Of a stretch of 64,000 nucleotides of DNA, positions 22,101-58,720 are shown in pieces (position 1 is the stretch's first letter; every line of letters starts with the position of its first letter). The stretch lies in contig JAUTXP010000047.1 of the NCBI GenBank assembly GCA_030837965.1, positions 1 through 64,000 on the forward strand. Reading direction: 5' to 3'. The translations under genes and the position numbers were made by a program. Source of the DNA: Acidimicrobiaceae bacterium (lineage in GTDB: Bacteria; Actinomycetota; Acidimicrobiia; Acidimicrobiales; JAUTXP01). A model generated the notes under the pieces. That model did not search any database, was not told the origin of the DNA, and saw only the letters and a list, made by a program, of their open reading frames with translations.

Positions 22101-25100
22101 GACCGCTTCGAGTTCGAGCTGGTCAACATCACGCTGCTCGACTTCTCGAGCTCGTGCCAGCCGCCGCAGCCGGTGCTGGCCGTGCTCAATCCCACCAACG
22201 GACAGCTCACCCTGAACATGGGCTCCGACGGCCGACGCCACGACCGCCAGATCAGCGTGGACGAGATCAACGAGAAGTTCACCGTGCGAAAACTGGGGCC
22301 AGGACGCGTGTCCGTGTCCGCCTTCGGCGCCTATCAAGAGTTCGGCGACTCGGCCCACCCGGTCACGTCCGTGTACGGCGACGGGGACACGGGTGACGAC
22401 GTCGTCTCCCTGTTGCCCGGCGCCAGCAACACCGTCGATCAGAACGCGGCGGGCACCACGGCGACGGTCAGCGGTCCGAGCACCGAGACGTTCGACATCC
22501 CGGCCACCATCAACGGCGGCCCGGGCTCGGACGCCATCACCACCGGCGACGCCAACGACACCATCCATGGCGACGGCGGCGCGGCGACGCCGCTGGCGGA
22601 CGGCAACGACAAGATCAACGCGGGCGGCGGGGCCGACACGGTGTTGGGTGACGGCGGCGACGACCAGATCGACGGCCAGCTCGGCGACGACACGCTTCTG
22701 TCCGGCGGCGTGGGCAACGACACCGTCAACGGCGGCCCGGGCGCGGACGTGATCCACGGCGATGAGAACAACGACGCCCTGACCGGTGGACCCGGCAGCC
22801 AGGCCGCCGACCCGGCCCACCCGGAGGCCAAGGACGACTTGGGCGACACCATCGTCGGAGGCTCGGGCGAGGACAGCATCCAAGGAGGCTTCGGCGACGA
22901 CTTCCTGCACGGCGACACGGACTTGGGCACCGACTTCGAGACGGCCTGCGCCAACAACGCCACCGGCGGGTTCGCACCGCCGCCGGCAAGGGACCAGGTC
23001 GACGGCGGGCCGGGCACCGACCTGCTCACCGGCGGACGCTACACCGACTCGCTCGTCGGCGGGGACGGCAACGACTTCCTGTGCGGCAACGCGGGCAACG
23101 ACACCATCGAGGGCGACAGCGACACGTCGACCGCACCGGGCAACGACAAGGCCGACGGCGGTTCGGGCAACGACGTTGTCAGGGGCCGTGCCGGCGCCGA
23201 CCTCCTGCGGGGCGGCAGCGGCAACGACCACGTGCTCGGCGGGATCGGCAATGACGACATGCTCGGCGGCACCGGCCGCGACCTGCTGGAAGGCGAGGCG
23301 GGTGTGGACGTGGTGCTGGGCGACGACGGCACCATCGACGCGGCCCGCGTGGCCCATGTCGGCTCGTCGTCGGGCTCGGACAGCGCGTGGAACTGCGCGG
23401 CCTACTCGCAGACCGACGCCACGCCCGGCAACGCCGACTGCATCAACGGCGGGTCCGAAGGGGACCTCCTCTATGGCGAGGGCTCGGCCGACCAGCTCTT
23501 CGGCGAGGACGGGGCCGACTACATCGAGGGCAACGCCGGACCCGACCAGGTCCGAGGCGGCCGCGACGGCGACACCATCCACGGCAACAACGGGGCCGAC
23601 CACCTCTTCGGCGACAGCGGCAATGACACCATGTTCGGCGACGCCGACTGCGACGAGCTTCGTGGCGGCATCGGCGACGACCACATCGAGGGCAACGGCG
23701 GGGCGGACACCGCCTTCGGCGACGCCGACCAGGACGACATCATCGGCGGGTCGTCCATCGCGGGTGCCGAGGACAACCAGGCCGACTGCGCCGACGGACT
23801 CGGCCTGCGCGGCGACCGCCTCATCGGTGGCGCAGCCCAGGACGTGATCCTGGGCGACAACGGCACCGTCGTGCGGCCCAGCCCCACTGCGGTGGACCCG
23901 GACGACAACGCGCCGGTCCCGCCGCTGTCGGCCACGGTGGCCCGCACCGTCACGCTGCTCGACGTGAACAGCCAGGCCGACGCCATCGCCGGCCCGGACT
24001 TCATCGACGGCGGCGAGGCCAACGACCGGCTGTACGGCCAAGGCGAGAACGACGACATGCACGGCGGCAACGGCATCGACCGCATGGAGGGCAACGCGGC
24101 CTCGGACGCCATGTTCGGCGACGGCGGCAACGACCTCATGCTCGGCGGCTCATCGGGCACCCCGGCCAGTGACCGGGACGCGGGCGACGCCATGAACGGC
24201 GGTGGCGACGACGACGTGATCGTGGGCGACAACGGGGCCATCGCGTGGAACGGCAGCGTCACGCCGCCCACCGGCGAGAACGCAGTGACCTTCGGTGTCG
24301 ACACCATCCACGGCAACGACGGCTACGACCGCATCTACGGCGAACTGGCGGGCGACTCCCTGTACGGCGACGCGGGCGGCGACTACATCCTGGGCGACCG
24401 GGGCACGGTGACGCCGGTGTCGACGCCGGTGGCCATCTGGCCGGGCGGGGCCCGCAACAACAGCGTGAGCCTGTTCTCGCCGGAGACGGGCGGCCTCGAC
24501 TTCATCTATGGCAACGGCGGCGACGACCACCTGTACGGCGGTTGGGCCAACGACACCATGGAGGGCGGCCCGGCCGACGACTACATGGAGGGCAACGGCG
24601 GCAAGGACCGGATGTTCGGCCTGGCCGAGAGCCCGACGATGGCCGAGAGCCTGGAGGCCGGGCCCATCCCGGTGGGCACGGGCGACCAGGACGACATGAT
24701 CGGCGGCTCGTCGTCCACCGACAGCCCGGACCCCCGCAAGGACGAGGGCGAGTTGGAGATGCGCGGCAACCTCGAGCAGGACGTGATGGCGGGCGACAAC
24801 GCCGACATCGTCAGGACGGTCAGCGTCAACCCGGCCGTGTGGGCGGTGGACAACATCACCGGCGGGGCTGCTCGCTCCGTCACCCTGCTCGACCGGGAGA
24901 AGACGGGCGCGGCCCTGACCGTGGTCAGTGGCGGCGACACCATGCTCGGCAACGAGGGCAACGACCGCATGTACGGCCAGGGCGGCCAGGACGTGATGAA
25001 GGGCAACGCCCAGGACGACTATCTCGAAGGCAACCAGGACGCCGACCAGGTCGAGGGCAACTCCGACGAGGACGACGTGATCGGCGGCAGCTCGCTCCAG

Positions 25101-40348: not shown

Positions 40349-42091
40349 TCAGTAGGCGGGGACGGCGGGGGGCGCGGGAGCCCGGAAGGCGCTGAGCAGT
40401 TCGGCCGCGCCGGCCGGGCACAAGATGTTGCCGTCCAGGCCGTTCGGGAACTGCACCAGCCAGGGCGTGCCCCCGCCGAAGGAGCGGTCGGGTGCGCAGG
40501 CCGCGGGGGCCTCGGCCGCGTTCTTGGGCCCGGCCACCCAGGTGGGCAGCCCCGGCGCGTAGCCCGCGGTGATGACGTTCCACTGGTACTGCGAGGAGTA
40601 GAAGCCGACCCGCAGCTTGGCCGCCTCCAGGCCCTCCTTGGCCCCCTTGACGATCAGCACGTTCAGCCGGGGGTCGGGCGACCATCGGTTGGTCGTCTCC
40701 ACGTCCAGCCACCACATGGGCGCCGAGACGTGGTGGGCGTTGGCCACGGCCACCGCCGCGGCCGCGCCCCGCCTGCCCCACCAGTAGAGCTGGCACGGCA
40801 GCTCGTGGGCCTTGCACACGTCGGCGTACTGCTCGTCCAGCCTGGGCTCGTCGTCCTTGGACGGCCAGTTCACGTTCATGTAGAGCGACGCCATCGAGCC
40901 GTGGCGCAAGGCCCATCGGTACTCGGCGGCCAGGCACGGGTTCTCGCTGAACTCGTGGCCCTTGGTCACCCCCACGATGCCGAAGGCATAGCCGCCGCCG
41001 GGCAGCCGGGCTCCGCACTGGGGCCACGAGATGTCCCAGCCGAAGGTGCCGGTGAGGGACTGGGCCTGGGTGCGCACGTCAGTGCCCGAGCCCGCGATCA
41101 GGCCGACGACCCGGCTGCGGCTGCCGTCCTCGACGGGAGCGCCGTAGAAGCCCGCGTCGCCATAGGCGAACACGCCGCCGTCGGCCCCGGCCAGCCAGTA
41201 GCCCCGGCCCGAGGCGGTGGTGGCCAGGCCCACGATGGGCGCAGTGGGGTTGGCCCCGATGGCCGAGCCGAAGTATCCGGCGTCGCCGTAGGAGAACACG
41301 CCGCCGTCCGCACCGACCAGCCAGTACCCGAGCCCGAACGGGGTGGCGGCCATGCCCACCACGCCCCGGTGCAGGGGCGTGCCCGCGGCCCCGCCGAAGT
41401 AGCCCGCGTCGCCGAACGCGAACACCCCGCCGTCCTTGGCCACCAGCCAGTAGCCCAACCCTGAAGGGGTCGAGGCCAGGCCGACGATGGGCTGGTTGAG
41501 CCGGGTGCCGGCCAACGAGCCTTTGAAGGCGGCGTCGCCGAAGGCGAAAACGCCCCCGTCGGACGCGGCAAGCCAGTACCCGCGGCCCGTGGGCGACGAG
41601 GCCATGGCCACCACTGAGCTGTTGAGCAGCTTGCCCGCGGCCGCGCCCAGAAAGGCGGCGTCGCCGTAGGCGAAGACCCCGCCGTCCTTGGCCGCCATCC
41701 AGTACCCCAGGCCCGAGGGCGTGGCCGCGATGGCGGCGACGGCCCGGCGCAAGGGGGTCCCCGCGGCGGACCCTGCGAAGTGGGCCCTGCCGTAGGCGAA
41801 CACGCCGCCGTCGGCCGCGGCCACCCAGTACCCCGGGCCCGGGCCGGACGGCCCTGCGGCCGCAGCCGCATCGCCTACCGCGGATGCGTCGACCGGTGGG
41901 AGAGGGACGTGGGGGAGGCGCCCGGAGAAGGGCGACGCGCCCGCGGGCGCGCTCATCAGCGTCAGGGCGCCGGCCAAGGCCAGCAGGCGCGAACGGAAGT
42001 GTCGAGAGCGAAAGGGCACGATGCGCGCCGGGGGAGGTCGCCGCGACGCCGCCGTCGTCAGCCCGCGCCCCACCCCCCGGTAGGCGGGCAC
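40349..42091 (-). CDS. Secreted WLV-ADGG repeat protein with GH25-like domain
   Basis: A 580-residue exported protein. The signal segment (RLLALAGALTLMSAPAGA) precedes six tandem repeats of about 45 residues with consensus GYWLVAKDGGVFAFGDAGYFG. The C-terminal part (FGWDISWPQCGARLPGGGYA, then WWLDVETTNRW and GFYSSQYQW) resembles glycoside hydrolase family 25 lysozyme-type or related TIM barrels that act on peptidoglycan. The Asp/Glu pair in WWLDVETT is consistent with catalysis. Starts GTG 42091 and GTG 42019 both precede the signal. The repeats also occur in the M23 peptidase. Confidence 0.75.
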   Translation of the reverse strand: MPAYRGVGRGLTTAASRRPPPARIVPFRSRHFRSRLLALAGALTLMSAPAGASPFSGRLPHVPLPPVDASAVGDAAAAAGPSGPGPGYWVAAADGGVFAYGRAHFAGSAAGTPLRRAVAAIAATPSGLGYWMAAKDGGVFAYGDAAFLGAAAGKLLNSSVVAMASSPTGRGYWLAASDGGVFAFGDAAFKGSLAGTRLNQPIVGLASTPSGLGYWLVAKDGGVFAFGDAGYFGGAAGTPLHRGVVGMAATPFGLGYWLVGADGGVFSYGDAGYFGSAIGANPTAPIVGLATTASGRGYWLAGADGGVFAYGDAGFYGAPVEDGSRSRVVGLIAGSGTDVRTQAQSLTGTFGWDISWPQCGARLPGGGYAFGIVGVTKGHEFSENPCLAAEYRWALRHGSMASLYMNVNWPSKDDEPRLDEQYADVCKAHELPCQLYWWGRRGAAAAVAVANAHHVSAPMWWLDVETTNRWSPDPRLNVLIVKGAKEGLEAAKLRVGFYSSQYQWNVITAGYAPGLPTWVAGPKNAAEAPAACAPDRSFGGGTPWLVQFPNGLDGNILCPAGAAELLSAFRAPAPPAVPAY

Positions 42092-53621: not shown

Positions 53622-55208
53622 CTAACGGACATCGGCCAAGAGCAGGGGCGGGGTGTGGACGTGGGTGATGGACGGGTCGCGGCCCACCACGTCCTCGGCC
53701 ATCTCCAGCGCGTCCCGCAACGTCGACGCGGGCTTGAACCCCAGCCTGCGCACGGCCTTGGGATCACCGCCCACGATGATCACCGCGCCCAAGTGCTGCA
53801 TGGCGTGCGCCCCCCAGTACCACATGTAGAACGGATGGACCCCGTGGTACGCGTTGGTCGTGCGGTACAGGTGCACGTACCACGGGTCGGTGGCGTAGCG
53901 CTCCTCGTAGGTCTTTTCGATCTCGAGCGGGTCGGTGGTGTCGGCCAGCACCTCGTCGAAGAAGTCGATGTAGCTGGGATGGTGCACGGGGTGGAACTCC
54001 CACGGGGTCGGGTGGCTCATGATCACCGCGCCGCCCTCGCGCACGAGGGGCTTGCCCCGGTAGAGGTTGAAGAAATAGCCGAGCCCGAGGCACATCACGA
54101 GGATCGGGTTCATCACCGAGTTCACGTTGTACGGGCAGATGTAGGGCAGGCCCATGGTGAGGACGTCGGTCTGGCCGCTCACCTCGACGAGCTGCTGCCG
54201 ATAGACGTGCTCGGTGGTCTGGGCGTGCACGGCCTCGACCTCGCCCGCCTGCACGCTGGTCAGGTCGTACGGCGAGCGGATGCCGTGCAGGATCTGCCGG
54301 GACAGGCGAGTGGGCGTGCGGTCCAAGGCCTTGCTCGACGCCGCGAACAGGGCCCGGTCCTTGGCCGACCACTCCCACTCCCGCTTGGACAGGAAGCTGA
54401 ACTGGTCCGGGAAGGTGCGGTTGTTCAGCGTGGTCTCGATCTGGAACACCTTGACGCCGCTGGCCGCGATGAGCTTGCCCATGCGCCAGTTGGACGAGTG
54501 CAGCTCCGAGCGGTGCTGGTCCATGAACGACCGGCTGTGCTGCATGGTGCGCACGTTGTGGTGGTGGCGCAGGCTCCGGTACGACGACAGGCCGGTGGCC
54601 ACGCTCTTGTGGCCGCCGTCCATGGCCACCAAGTTGATGTTCACGTAGACGATGAGGTCGCTGGTGGCCGCCCGCTTGTTGATCTCGACGTCCTCGCCCT
54701 GCTCGGTCTGGCCCAGGAACGTGAGGTTGTCCGGGTCCTCCGCATCGTGCTGGGTCAGCAGTCCGTTGGGCGCGAACGCGTCGAAGACCCGGTCGCCCAG
54801 CGCGTGGCGTAGCTCGTCGTCGGTCATGCGCCGGTGCAGGGCCAGCGCGGCCACGAGCTGCACATCGTCAACGCCCTTTTCGGCGGCCACGTCGAGGACG
54901 GCCTCGATGACCCGCTGGCGCACGTCCGGCCCCTTCATGGGCGGCAGCGGCAGCGACACGTCGTCGAAGCAGATGGTCAACCTCATGCCCGGCCGCAAGA
55001 GGTCGGGCAGTGGGGCCGAGTCGCCCAGCGGGTTGCGCAGGGCATGGCGGATGGCCGCGTCCGGGTCGGGCAGGCCGGCGAGGGGCTCGGGCGGGTAGAT
55101 GACGCGGCTGCCGGGCGGGAGCTGTTCCAGCCGGTAGCCCTCACCGTGCCAGAAGAGGGTGGGCGGGGTGGAGCGGTCGACGTCGAGGACGAACCCAGGG
55201 CGGGGCAA
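53622..55208 (-). CDS. LarA-like nickel-dependent racemase family protein
   Basis: A 528-residue protein of the LarA/DUF2088 family. It shows LTICFDDVSLPLPPMKGPDV, the catalytic region VAALALHRRMTDDEL, and DGGHKSVATGLSSYR with the Lys that in LarA carries the nickel-pincer nucleotide, followed by LRHHHN. Lactate racemase activity is not implied: the family is broad, and neither larB, larC nor larE is seen in the window. Start TTG 55208 is five bases after the stop of the dehydrogenase gene. It lies in an operon with lipid genes. Confidence 0.7.
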   Translation of the reverse strand: MPRPGFVLDVDRSTPPTLFWHGEGYRLEQLPPGSRVIYPPEPLAGLPDPDAAIRHALRNPLGDSAPLPDLLRPGMRLTICFDDVSLPLPPMKGPDVRQRVIEAVLDVAAEKGVDDVQLVAALALHRRMTDDELRHALGDRVFDAFAPNGLLTQHDAEDPDNLTFLGQTEQGEDVEINKRAATSDLIVYVNINLVAMDGGHKSVATGLSSYRSLRHHHNVRTMQHSRSFMDQHRSELHSSNWRMGKLIAASGVKVFQIETTLNNRTFPDQFSFLSKREWEWSAKDRALFAASSKALDRTPTRLSRQILHGIRSPYDLTSVQAGEVEAVHAQTTEHVYRQQLVEVSGQTDVLTMGLPYICPYNVNSVMNPILVMCLGLGYFFNLYRGKPLVREGGAVIMSHPTPWEFHPVHHPSYIDFFDEVLADTTDPLEIEKTYEERYATDPWYVHLYRTTNAYHGVHPFYMWYWGAHAMQHLGAVIIVGGDPKAVRRLGFKPASTLRDALEMAEDVVGRDPSITHVHTPPLLLADVR

Positions 55209-55213
55209 GAGGC

Positions 55214-56368
55214 TCAGCGCCTTTCTGTACGTAGGTCGAAGGCGATCTTCACCGCGCCCCGCCTGCCCGCGTGGGCGGCGTGGTCGACGGCCTCGCGATA
55301 GCGGTCGAGGGGGTAGAGGGCGGACACCAGCCTGCCCAAATCTGCTTGTGCGACAAGGCCGAACGCGTCGTGGAAGTCCTCGGCGGTGTAGGCGTAGGCG
55401 CCCTTCAGTGCCACCTCGCGATGCCACAGCGGCGTGAGATCGATGGACGTGGTGCCCGCCATGCCGACGAGGACGACGGTTCCTCCGGGGGCCACCACCT
55501 TGAGGGCTTGGGTGACGGACTGCCGCGAGCCGACACAGTCGAACACCGCGTCGACGCCGCCGGTGAGCTGGCCGTCTGCGCGCGCGTTGTCGGTGCGCAG
55601 GCTGGACGTGGTCCGGCGCACGCCGCGCTCGATGTCGTCCACCGCGGTCGCGCCCAGTCCTGTGGCCAGGAGCTTTTGGTGGGGGTGCTTGGCCGAGACG
55701 AGCACCGGACGCTCGGAGAGCAAGCGCAGGGCGGCGACCGTGCACAGGCCCAGGGTGCCCGCGCCGATGACGGCGACTGCTCCGCTTGCACCGTCGGGCG
55801 GAACCAGTCGGGCCGCGTGCAGCGCGCAGGCGGTGGGCTCCACCATGACCGCGGTCTCGTCGCTCATGCCTTCGGGAACGCGGTGGAGCTGCGAGTCGTG
55901 GGCGACGAGGGCGTGGCCCCAACCCCCGCCGGTGTCCTGGCAGAACCCTGTCTGCAAGCCGGGGGAGAGGTGGCCGAAGGCCTGTCGCTCGCACAGGTTG
56001 GTGCGACCGGCCTGGCACTGCGGGCACGACGGATCGATGCCGCGCGCCGCGCAGGCGAGGGTTGCGGCCAACGCCACGCGAGTGCCGTCGTCCAGTTCGC
56101 CCACCACCTCATGGCCGGGTGTGAAGGGGAAGCTGACGATGGGCTCGAAGTAGCGGGAGCTGTGCCCGTCGATGGTGGCCAGGTCGGAGCCGCAGATGCC
56201 CGACAGGCGCGGCCGCACCCGATGCCAGCCCGGACCCGGGGGCGTGGGCCCGTCCACGTCCTTCAAGCTGAGCGGCCCGACACGCGCCCCTCGCCCGGGA
56301 CTGATGCGGCCTGCGATGGCCGCCGCCGCGTACTTGGGGATGGAGCGCTCGAAGACGAGCGCCTTCAT
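55214..56368 (-). CDS. Zinc-dependent medium-chain alcohol dehydrogenase
   Basis: A 384-residue MDR-family enzyme. Catalytic zinc ligands lie in GICGSDLATI and GHEVVGEL, the structural zinc Cys cluster is seen in CAARGIDPSCPQCQAGRTNL, and the Rossmann motif is VAVIGAGTLGLCTVAA. The substrate is not known. In this operon it follows a fatty acyl-CoA reductase, so a fatty alcohol/aldehyde is a reasonable guess. The start region is repeated three times in tandem (56352-56402); the third ATG, at 56368, is in frame. Confidence 0.88.
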   Translation of the reverse strand: MKALVFERSIPKYAAAAIAGRISPGRGARVGPLSLKDVDGPTPPGPGWHRVRPRLSGICGSDLATIDGHSSRYFEPIVSFPFTPGHEVVGELDDGTRVALAATLACAARGIDPSCPQCQAGRTNLCERQAFGHLSPGLQTGFCQDTGGGWGHALVAHDSQLHRVPEGMSDETAVMVEPTACALHAARLVPPDGASGAVAVIGAGTLGLCTVAALRLLSERPVLVSAKHPHQKLLATGLGATAVDDIERGVRRTTSSLRTDNARADGQLTGGVDAVFDCVGSRQSVTQALKVVAPGGTVVLVGMAGTTSIDLTPLWHREVALKGAYAYTAEDFHDAFGLVAQADLGRLVSALYPLDRYREAVDHAAHAGRRGAVKIAFDLRTERR

Positions 56369-56402
56369 CGGACGACACCCTTCATGTGACGACAGCCTTC
56401 AT
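56352..56402 (-). repeat. Three tandem 17-bp copies of a start-codon region
   Basis: Minus-strand units begin at 56402, 56385 and 56368, each opening ATGAAGG followed by a TGTCGTC or closely similar stretch. Units 1 and 2 encode the six-codon ORFs MKAVVT and MKGVVR. Each of the three ATGs overlaps the preceding TGA (that of FAR, mini-ORF 1 and mini-ORF 2), which forms a chain of ATGA couplings ending at the dehydrogenase MKALVF. Confidence 0.9.
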
Positions 56403-58720
56403 CGGGCTCGGGCCCCGATGGGCAGCAGCGGCCGCGGCCCGCCCGGCGACTTGTCCCACTGCTCGACGTGCCAGCCCCGCTTGCGGGCGATGGTGGCCAG
56501 CTTGGCCTCGGGGTTGACGGCGACGGGGTGGCCGACGGCTTCGAGCATGGGCAGGTCGCTGGCCGAGTCGGCGTAGGCCACGGCCTGTTCGAGGTCGAGC
56601 CCGTGGGCATCGGCGTAGTCCTGCATGACGATGGCCCTGGCCTCGCCGGTGGGCGGCGCCTCCTGCAACTCGCCGGTGAGGCGGCCGTTCGAGTCGGTGG
56701 TGAGATGGGCCGCGACCACGTCGTCGAACAGAGGCTCGAGGGGCGCGATGACGAAGTCGAGGGCGCCGGTGATGAGCAGCGTGCGGTGGCCGCGGGCCCG
56801 GTGCTCGCGCACCCTGCGGATACCGGCGGGGAACGACTTGGTGAGGATCAGACCGGCGAACAGGTCCCACGCGTCGTCGTGCAGCCGGGCCGCAGGCGCG
56901 CCCTCGTAGCGACGGTAGAAGTGACGGAGGAAGTCGCCTCGGTCGCGCCGGTCGAGGGCCAAGAGGGCAGGCGCCTCGCGCAGCGTGCGGGCCACGAAGC
57001 GGGCCCGGTCGGCGGTGGGCAGGTGGCGGGTCGCCAACCACGCGTAGCTCTCGACCACGTTCGACGCGATCAGCGTGTTCTCCAAGTCGAACACGGCCAG
57101 ATGGCGCTTGGGGTCGAGGATGGCCTTGCGCCCCCGCTCCTCGCGGGTCGGCCCCTGCTTGCGGCCCGCGGCGGTGCGGACCCGTGCATGCACGACGATG
57201 GAGGGCAGGTGGATGTCGTGCACGTAGTCGCGCCACCCGACCAGCGCGGGGTCGAAGCCGAAGGCGGCCTGGTCGGCCGCGTCCATGCGTGACCAAAGAC
57301 CGATGAGCCGGTCGACCTGGAAGACGGCCTCGGTCTCCGTGTAGGCGCCGTAGAGGCGGACGTATCCCAGGGCCCGGTCGGCTTGCGTGCGGCGCTCTTC
57401 GAGACGGCCGCTCAACTGCGCCCGCCGGCCTCGCACGGGCAGACTGGTGAGGACCTTCTCGGCCGCGGCCAAGGTCTTGGTGGCCCGCTCGAGTTGGCGC
57501 TGGACACGCCCTCGGCCGGGGAACGACCACTCGGGCACGACGATGGGCTGGCCCTCGCCGTCGTAGAGCGGGTTGGCCGTGAACCATTCGCGCACGAGGT
57601 CGACCAGGCCTCGGTAGCGCAGCGGGTTGCGGGCCCCGGACGCGACCTGAAAGACGCCTTCTTCCCGGGTGGCGGCCACGGCGATGATGGCCGCGACCAC
57701 CAGGTCGACGGGGATGACGTCGACCACGCCTTCGGGGATGCCGGGGAACTCCTTCAGCAGGCCGCGGCCGTAGCTGATGATGACGGGCTCGGCCATGCGG
57801 AAGCCCCTGATCCATCCGGGCCGGGGCTCGGCCAGCGCGGACTCGATGATGCTGGGGCGGACGACCGCAGTGGGCTGGCCGGTGCGGGCCGTGGTCTCGA
57901 ACAGGGCCTTCTCGCCCAAGGCCTTGGTGTAGGCGTAGGCGTCGGGCCAGCCGAGGGACTGGGCCCGGGCCCGACCCTGCTCCACCAGTTGGTCGGCGAC
58001 CCACTCGGTCCGCAGGCGCTCGGCCCGGTCGGCGATCAACGGCGTCGACGCCGCGCCCAACTCGTGGCGGGCCTGCTTTGTGAAGCTCGACAGCCGCTCG
58101 GGGCGGCGGCTCTCGGTGTCCGCGTCTTGGCGGGATCGGCGGGCGGCGTCGACTTCAGTCCGCCAGTCGATGTCCTTGACCGGGCTGAACGGCGTCTCGG
58201 TGAGCGGGCGTTCGTGGGCCGGGCCTCGGCGGGTGCCCGCCACATAGGCGGTGGAGACGGCGACGAGGTGGGCCTTGGTGTTGCCGGTCTGTTCGAGGGC
58301 CTCGGCCACGCGGCTGGGGCCGAGCAGGTTGACCTCGACGGCCGCGTCCAGGGCCGCGTCGAAGCTGACCGTGGCGGCCGAGTGGATGACGATGTCGGCC
58401 TCGCCCAGTGCGCGCCGGCCGTCGTCGTCCAGGCCCAGACCGTCTTGGCCCACGTCGCCCGCCACGGTGTGGAGCCGGTCGCGGATGAGGGCGTCGAAGG
58501 CCTCGGGCCCGACCTCGGCGCGGAGGCGGTCGAAGCAGTCGTTGCGCAGGATCTCCCTGCGGGTGCGCTCGGCCGCGGCCGTGCGCCGGCCCGAGCGGAC
58601 GAGGACGGTGACGTGCAGATCGGGCACGCAGCGCAGCAGCCGCTCGACCAGCGCCGTGCCCAGGAAGCCGGTGGCCCCGGTGACCAGGACCCGCTTGCCC
58701 GCCAGCCCTTCTCGGATCAT
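56399..58720 (-). CDS. Fatty acyl-CoA reductase fused to HAD-family hydrolase
   Basis: A 773-residue fusion. Residues 1-530 are an SDR-type reductase with VLVTGATGFLGTALVERLL, IVIHSAATVSFDAALD, VAVSTAYVAGT and the YxxxK-like AYAYTKALGEK, followed by a FAR C-terminal domain. Residues about 540-773 are a HAD-IB domain, but the first motif reads FDLENT instead of DxDxT, so the second Asp is Glu. FAR enzymes reduce acyl-CoA to fatty alcohol for wax esters. The first gene of a four-gene operon with a dehydrogenase, LarA-like protein and PlsC. A TetR gene and a 46-bp palindrome lie upstream. ATG at 58720. Confidence 0.88.
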   Translation of the reverse strand: MIREGLAGKRVLVTGATGFLGTALVERLLRCVPDLHVTVLVRSGRRTAAAERTRREILRNDCFDRLRAEVGPEAFDALIRDRLHTVAGDVGQDGLGLDDDGRRALGEADIVIHSAATVSFDAALDAAVEVNLLGPSRVAEALEQTGNTKAHLVAVSTAYVAGTRRGPAHERPLTETPFSPVKDIDWRTEVDAARRSRQDADTESRRPERLSSFTKQARHELGAASTPLIADRAERLRTEWVADQLVEQGRARAQSLGWPDAYAYTKALGEKALFETTARTGQPTAVVRPSIIESALAEPRPGWIRGFRMAEPVIISYGRGLLKEFPGIPEGVVDVIPVDLVVAAIIAVAATREEGVFQVASGARNPLRYRGLVDLVREWFTANPLYDGEGQPIVVPEWSFPGRGRVQRQLERATKTLAAAEKVLTSLPVRGRRAQLSGRLEERRTQADRALGYVRLYGAYTETEAVFQVDRLIGLWSRMDAADQAAFGFDPALVGWRDYVHDIHLPSIVVHARVRTAAGRKQGPTREERGRKAILDPKRHLAVFDLENTLIASNVVESYAWLATRHLPTADRARFVARTLREAPALLALDRRDRGDFLRHFYRRYEGAPAARLHDDAWDLFAGLILTKSFPAGIRRVREHRARGHRTLLITGALDFVIAPLEPLFDDVVAAHLTTDSNGRLTGELQEAPPTGEARAIVMQDYADAHGLDLEQAVAYADSASDLPMLEAVGHPVAVNPEAKLATIARKRGWHVEQWDKSPGGPRPLLPIGARAR

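Follow-up and report, generated by a model that had tools for sequence, protein, structure and literature searches.

A tandem 17-nt repeat at a reductase-dehydrogenase gene junction in an Acidimicrobiaceae bacterium, a probable termination-reinitiation relay kept in phase

The array at the reductase-dehydrogenase junction

The window, i.e., the whole 64,000-nt stretch of DNA analysed here, carries on its minus strand (53622-58720) a run of three genes. The upstream gene (56399-58720) was identified by domain matches as encoding a fusion of a fatty acyl-CoA reductase-like protein (NAD_binding_4, Male sterility-like) with an HAD-IB domain, hereafter FAR. It is followed by a gene for a zinc-binding alcohol dehydrogenase family protein (55214-56368), whose start was set from the conserved, MKALxFER-like N-terminus of its relatives, and then by a gene for an NPN-dependent hydroxyacid isomerase of the LarAH14/15/16 family, hereafter LarA (53622-55235, start approximate). 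The order FAR, dehydrogenase and LarAH14/15/16-type isomerase is kept in many relatives, and some relatives have no dehydrogenase between FAR and LarA. Elsewhere in the window, a 27-nt unit is repeated in tandem at 22844-23519, and we take these repeats to translate into GGxGxDxxx-type nonapeptides, RTX-like; another tandem repeat, with a 126-nt unit (4.6 copies, 71% matches), lies at 41139-41716.

At the junction of FAR and the dehydrogenase, Tandem Repeats Finder and sequence reading delimited an array of three 17-nt units on the minus strand (56402-56352). Unit 1, ATGAAGGCTGTCGTCAC (56386-56402), has GAGCCCG immediately 5', unit 2 is ATGAAGGGTGTCGTCCG (56369-56385), and unit 3, ATGAAGGCGCTCGTCTT (56352-56368), is the 5' end of the dehydrogenase gene itself and is followed by CGAG. 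Tandem Repeats Finder gave a period of 17, 2.6 copies, 81% matches and a score of 67, the highest in the window among periods that are not multiples of 3. In a three-copy test the period-17 self-match was 26 of 34 positions, a value that was not reached once when the 161-nt region was mononucleotide-shuffled 2000 times and that was reached by 8 of about 800 window tiles, i.e., the array and seven others with periods 18, 24 or 27. The copies have diverged, with 12-14 of 17 positions identical when compared by eye in the reader's register. An earlier, sequence-only reading had placed three 17-base units at 56352-56402, and these coordinates proved exact.

The FAR stop codon, TGA at 56401-56399, is part of the first ATGA of the array. 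Mini-ORF 1 (MKAVVT*, 56382-56402, minus strand) has its ATG on this stop and terminates in the second ATGA; mini-ORF 2 (MKGVVR*, 56365-56385, minus strand) uses the ATG of the second unit and terminates inside the third ATGA. A script check showed that the chain from the FAR stop through MKAVVT* and MKGVVR* to the dehydrogenase ATG is unbroken, confirming both the peptides and the frame logic of the ATGA relay described in that reading. A co-directional stop/start overlap of 4 or 1 nt, the mark of a termination-reinitiation coupled gene pair, is present at all three links. By eye, no clear Shine-Dalgarno-like motif was seen at the window junction before either the first start or the dehydrogenase start, and the RNA structure was unremarkable there: the folding energy was -77.3 kcal/mol, where shuffled sequences gave -71.9 ± 4.0 (z = -1.35), and 25 of the 200 shuffles were just as stable.

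Junction classes and phase among relatives

The relatives compared belong to the order Acidimicrobiales, as judged by the named ones; a search of the genome collection turned up no other member of the window's genus or family. Of 397 genomes of the order that were sampled, 339 had a strong FAR match (E ≤ 1e-150). Named matches included Acidimicrobiales, Ilumatobacter and Candidatus Microthrix, beside many actinobacterial MAGs, and the few titled Bifidobacterium breve, Acidobacteria or Thermoanaerobacterales are presumably misnamed. We examined 303 FAR loci, 120 of them fetched from listed matches that favour closer relatives, and left out repeated contexts and three loci with no usable downstream gene. 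One of the latter, L226, is by eye another relay. This gave 246 distinct contexts, 193 of FAR with the dehydrogenase and 53 of FAR with LarA and no dehydrogenase at that place.

Among the 193 FAR-dehydrogenase junctions, 157 had a direct overlap, 31 a relay holding one to three mini-ORFs, two an in-frame N-terminal extension, and three neither. The overlap, direct or relayed, is thus conserved among relatives (188 of 193). The three exceptions are L058, where the start may be a CTG that forms part of a CTGA overlap; L092, with TAG followed by ATG; and L165, with a GTGA mini-ORF that stops with TAG just 5' of a GTG having a Shine-Dalgarno motif. The 53 FAR-LarA contexts comprised 24 direct overlaps, 17 relays and 12 uncoupled or other junctions, the LarA start being chosen in the relay's favour; with the same preference, 121 distinct dehydrogenase-LarA contexts comprised 79 direct overlaps, 12 relays, 18 gapped junctions and 12 with a possible longer overlap. 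A single one of these 18 gapped contexts had an NTGA stop (L298). Coupling can therefore be lost, as these uncoupled and gapped contexts indicate, nearly all of them with a stop other than NTGA. The mini-ORFs ranged from 8 to 191 nt and were spread over 14 families or more, with no conservation of the encoded peptides between relatives. Longer inserts of about 160-200 nt with internal or shared repeats were seen at FAR-dehydrogenase (L033, L134, L246) and dehydrogenase-LarA (L264, L267, L300) junctions; these might be small mobile repeats that behave like mycobacterial interspersed repetitive units (MIRUs).

For the analysis of phase, a FAR stop was scored as lying in NTGA when N was A, G or T, i.e., when a start codon overlapped it, and the dehydrogenase start was set by homology, as the start codon nearest the conserved N-terminus, the relay playing no part in the choice. 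Where the FAR stop lay in NTGA and the dehydrogenase started downstream and out of that frame, an intact relay was found in 30 of 31 cases; no out-of-frame run from an NTGA FAR stop into the dehydrogenase was seen in the 193 contexts. When each insert was shuffled and its length varied by one either way, 9.4 relays in 30, about one third, were expected with free length. Against one third, the binomial probability was 1e-13 with rows taken as independent and 2e-7 with each of 14 coded families counted once, figures to be read with the shared ancestry of the counted rows and a sampling that favours closer relatives. We also considered that the gap might stem from a premature FAR stop; this was rejected by reasoning, because such a stop stays in the same frame, so that the distance would be 0 mod 3 instead of 2 mod 3.

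Ribosome entry signals separated the two junction classes. A Shine-Dalgarno-like motif, defined as at least 4 nt of AGGAGG located 5-16 nt before the start, preceded the dehydrogenase in 90 of 157 direct overlaps versus 7 of 31 relays (Fisher P = 0.0006), the shuffled background being 22% and 17%, respectively. At the end of FAR, before the first start of the relay, the motif was found in 13 of 31 cases against 18% in shuffles. The dehydrogenase starts of relays therefore come without a Shine-Dalgarno-like signal, as expected if their ribosomes arrive from the mini-ORF.

The relay state changed at least 27 times on a FastTree phylogeny of 166 FARs, gains and losses pooled. Comparison of the junction in related genomes, a check already proposed from the sequence, showed that the unit number varies: in genus g85, no unit was present in G413, G334 and G155, one 14-nt unit in G317 and three in G095, and G414 had a 29-nt mini-ORF. 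In genus g127, a relay was present in all seven genomes examined; the mini-ORFs measured 26, 29 or 41 nt, thus differing by multiples of three, and encoded unlike peptides. The FAR-LarA junctions of genus g35 were direct in 11 of 22, with 14, 56 or 59 nt in 10 and one not classed. The mini-ORF starts resembled the start of their own dehydrogenase, with a mean identity of 0.465 versus 0.401 with the dehydrogenases of others (positions 5-14), and only 6 of 20000 permutations were as high. A clear copy of the dehydrogenase 5' end (0.6 or more) was present in about 9 of 30, the window among them; traces of duplication are thus limited to roughly one third of the cases, since the other 21 or so relay inserts no longer resemble, or never resembled, the dehydrogenase start. 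In G011 (L021), four units of 31/32 nt were found; the second, 1 nt shorter, reads through the next two and still stops on the dehydrogenase ATGA.

Relays and ATGA arrays at other loci

In 342 kb of the window's own genome (G000), the window included, a crude gene caller classed 6 of 184 co-directional gene pairs as relays and 36 as direct overlaps, and the same crude calling gave relays in 2 of 109 and 3 of 114 co-directional pairs of two other genomes. One locus of the own genome, L408 (contig C71:73041-73072, plus strand), has two 14-nt relay units, ATGAAGGCGATCCG and ATGAAGGCGACCCG, between gcvPA and gcvPB, which encode subunits of one enzyme; the gene downstream starts ATGAAGGCGACGAG. Another, L380 (= L323:14445-14490, contig C55), is a triple 14-nt relay, MTAAR*/MTPTR*/MTPIR*, and neither of its flanking small ORFs had an NCBIfam match. 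At L359 (G030, contig C37), a long ORF starting MKVVAK is immediately preceded by a 14-nt unit (MKVPA*) in six identical copies, and no long upstream ORF terminates at the array, so relay-like arrays occur in leaders too. G095 (contig C69:17587-17702) has an extended run of nearly identical ATGAATTCGGAAAG units, each 14 nt long, whose copy number might vary.

Exact triple ATGA arrays were searched in 198 genomes of the order and were found in 71 with period 14, 58 with period 17, 21 with period 13 and 38 with period 16; by our own count from the tables, the backward-pattern controls for periods 14, 17, 13 and 16 gave 19, 14, 10 and 20 genomes. The last ATG opened at least 100 codons in 41 of 50 arrays of period 14 or 17 versus 9 of 22 of period 13 or 16 (Fisher P = 0.0009), and the first TGA also closed at least 100 codons in 23 of 50 versus 3 of 22 (Fisher P = 0.009); in these comparisons the period-14 set consisted of 30 listed loci and two from the own genome, the other periods were hand-picked, mostly one per genome, and AT-rich and simple-repeat arrays were passed over for periods 13 and 16. 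The latter periods are a partial control only, because a pair of such units measures 26 or 32 nt, which is also 2 mod 3; by eye, the arrays at L411 and L443 are bridgeable from the first to the last ATG. Phylum-wide, period-14 arrays occurred in 31 of 198 genomes, 4 of these in the order, and with a 60-codon criterion only 6 of the 29 loci listed (three of the 29 in the order) lay at a gene junction; for this reason, we confine the claim to the order.

Interpretation and known systems

The array is likely to be a termination-reinitiation relay that arose by tandem duplication of the dehydrogenase 5' end and was kept by selection on phase. The direct overlap is probably the ancestral state, as it is the commonest among FAR-dehydrogenase contexts. 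The ancestral junction would have been a single RTGA overlap, at which a ribosome finishing FAR restarts at once on the dehydrogenase. A duplication starting at the ATGA would spare both proteins, with FAR stopping at the first TGA and the last copy starting the dehydrogenase, and would add extra ATGs between the two. If the unit is 2 mod 3 (14, 17, 32 and so on), the frame from each ATG would stop on the next ATGA and the ribosome would be handed on; with other lengths the frame would enter the dehydrogenase out of frame or extend its N-terminus. Selection would retain the 2-mod-3 class, and the hexapeptides would have no function of their own. Ribosomes crossing the window array would thus reinitiate two or more times running, and it is for this passage that we infer selection. 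Published coupling data fit such a cost: coupling requires an overlap or a very short distance, and distances of about 20 nt almost abolish it in Haloferax volcanii and Escherichia coli gene pairs, according to the accessible part of the report (PMC10666635), so that an insertion at the junction should carry a cost, except where the insert is a coupled ORF in its own right.

Other accounts have to be weighed against this relay. The sequence-only reading held that ribosomes pass through the two mini-ORFs by ATGA links and that this lowers or tunes dehydrogenase translation relative to FAR. Its first part is in line with the coupling-type overlaps and the conservation of the unbroken chain. The second part, in which each reinitiation would lose ribosomes and the number of units would set a selected dehydrogenase:FAR ratio, appears unlikely to us: unit number does differ within genus g85, and whole units are gained or lost with the chain unbroken, but most relatives carry no unit and overlap directly, relays appear and disappear within genera, the length and sequence of the mini-ORFs, peptide included, vary freely, and a passive by-product would explain the same data. 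A simpler account than tuning, and the one that the comparison suggests, is that a coupled junction tolerates insertions and deletions only when ribosomes continue to be delivered. Leader peptides that stall or sense, attenuator-like, are highly improbable here, even if a short ORF right before a gene can regulate that gene, as described for mgtQ in the part of PMC8092293 available, because neither the peptide nor its length is conserved among relatives and the RNA structure is ordinary.

A neutral repeat, with a dehydrogenase start that binds ribosomes independently and a phase due to chance, would leave the dehydrogenase ORF intact regardless of the DNA upstream, and by eye each unit has AAGG 10 nt before the next ATG, a possible weak ribosome-binding site. 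However, intact chains made up 30 of 31 cases where about a third was expected, and Shine-Dalgarno-like motifs before the dehydrogenase were rarer in relays, which makes this explanation very improbable. We give the least credence of all to an assembly or sequencing artefact: the draft genome is in 88 contigs, but the three units differ mutually and many other assemblies show relays of this kind, including the single-contig genome G002 (L033).

Returning to the phase-selected relay, it can be extended to a bolder proposal that we hold only tentatively and rather doubt. The 14- or 17-nt unit would be a self-contained relay module, since any copy number keeps the chain as long as the length is 2 mod 3 and ATGA begins the unit, and across Acidimicrobiales such arrays could act as fast-evolving and perhaps strain-variable translation rheostats for downstream operon genes, with ribosomes reinitiating successively on five-codon ORFs, as the six identical units before one gene at L359 would allow. 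If this is true, the arrays could expand and contract by slippage with both proteins unbroken. At the FAR-dehydrogenase junction, the many separate insertions into one conserved site, nearly all in a reinitiation-compatible phase, amount to a natural experiment on translational coupling, and they suggest that in these bacteria a ribosome gets to a downstream gene by restarting at once after termination, rather than by scanning or binding freely. The relays also show how nonsense mini-ORFs arise within operons, where such short ORFs are easily overlooked in annotation, and junctions with 0, 1, 2 and 3 units are ready-made constructs for measuring the cost per reinitiation step.

The primary paper on MIRUs is reportedly that of Supply in 1997. 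According to the part of PMC12548453 accessible, a MIRU inserted at a start codon provides an ORF coupled at -4 and disturbs expression little. The relays share this arrangement of a repeat ORF coupled to the downstream gene at -4 spacing; unlike the mobile and interspersed MIRUs, their units are short local copies, locus-specific and often matching the 5' end of their own gene. The period-14 and period-17 arrays of the own genome (window, C55, C71 and C68) differ in unit sequence, and judged on these arrays and by the dispersed-repeat criterion, the window array works like a MIRU but is not one. The conventional -4/-1 coupled pairs, in which stop and start share 4 nt (ATGA or GTGA), have the same overlap, and those described in the accessible parts of PMC10666635 and PMC6728339 are single junctions, whereas the two genes here are joined through a chain of one to several mini-ORFs. 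The axe-txe minigene mg2, for which the distance from the minigene stop to the next start matters (PMC8708949, in part), and the intergenic short ORF mgtQ, which acts with alternative stem-loops (PMC8092293, in part), are likewise very short ORFs just 5' of a gene whose translation they influence; as these partial texts present them, they are single and have no stop/start relay from an upstream gene, whereas the window mini-ORFs are tandem and relayed. In the literature on coupling, MIRUs and minigenes, which took in few subscription papers and several texts in part, we found no account of operon genes joined by relays of tandemly duplicated mini-ORFs. Mycobacterial RTGA-coupled small ORFs, which are enriched over chance and in which the linkage but not the peptide is conserved, also use the RTGA tetramer to link a small ORF to the next gene; as far as the available part of PMC4633059 goes, they start leaderless transcripts, whereas the window mini-ORFs start on the stop codon of an upstream operon gene and, to judge by the sequence, not at a leaderless 5' end, and such relay ORFs may be tandem. 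The closest known systems are thus the MIRUs and the RTGA-coupled small ORFs of mycobacteria.
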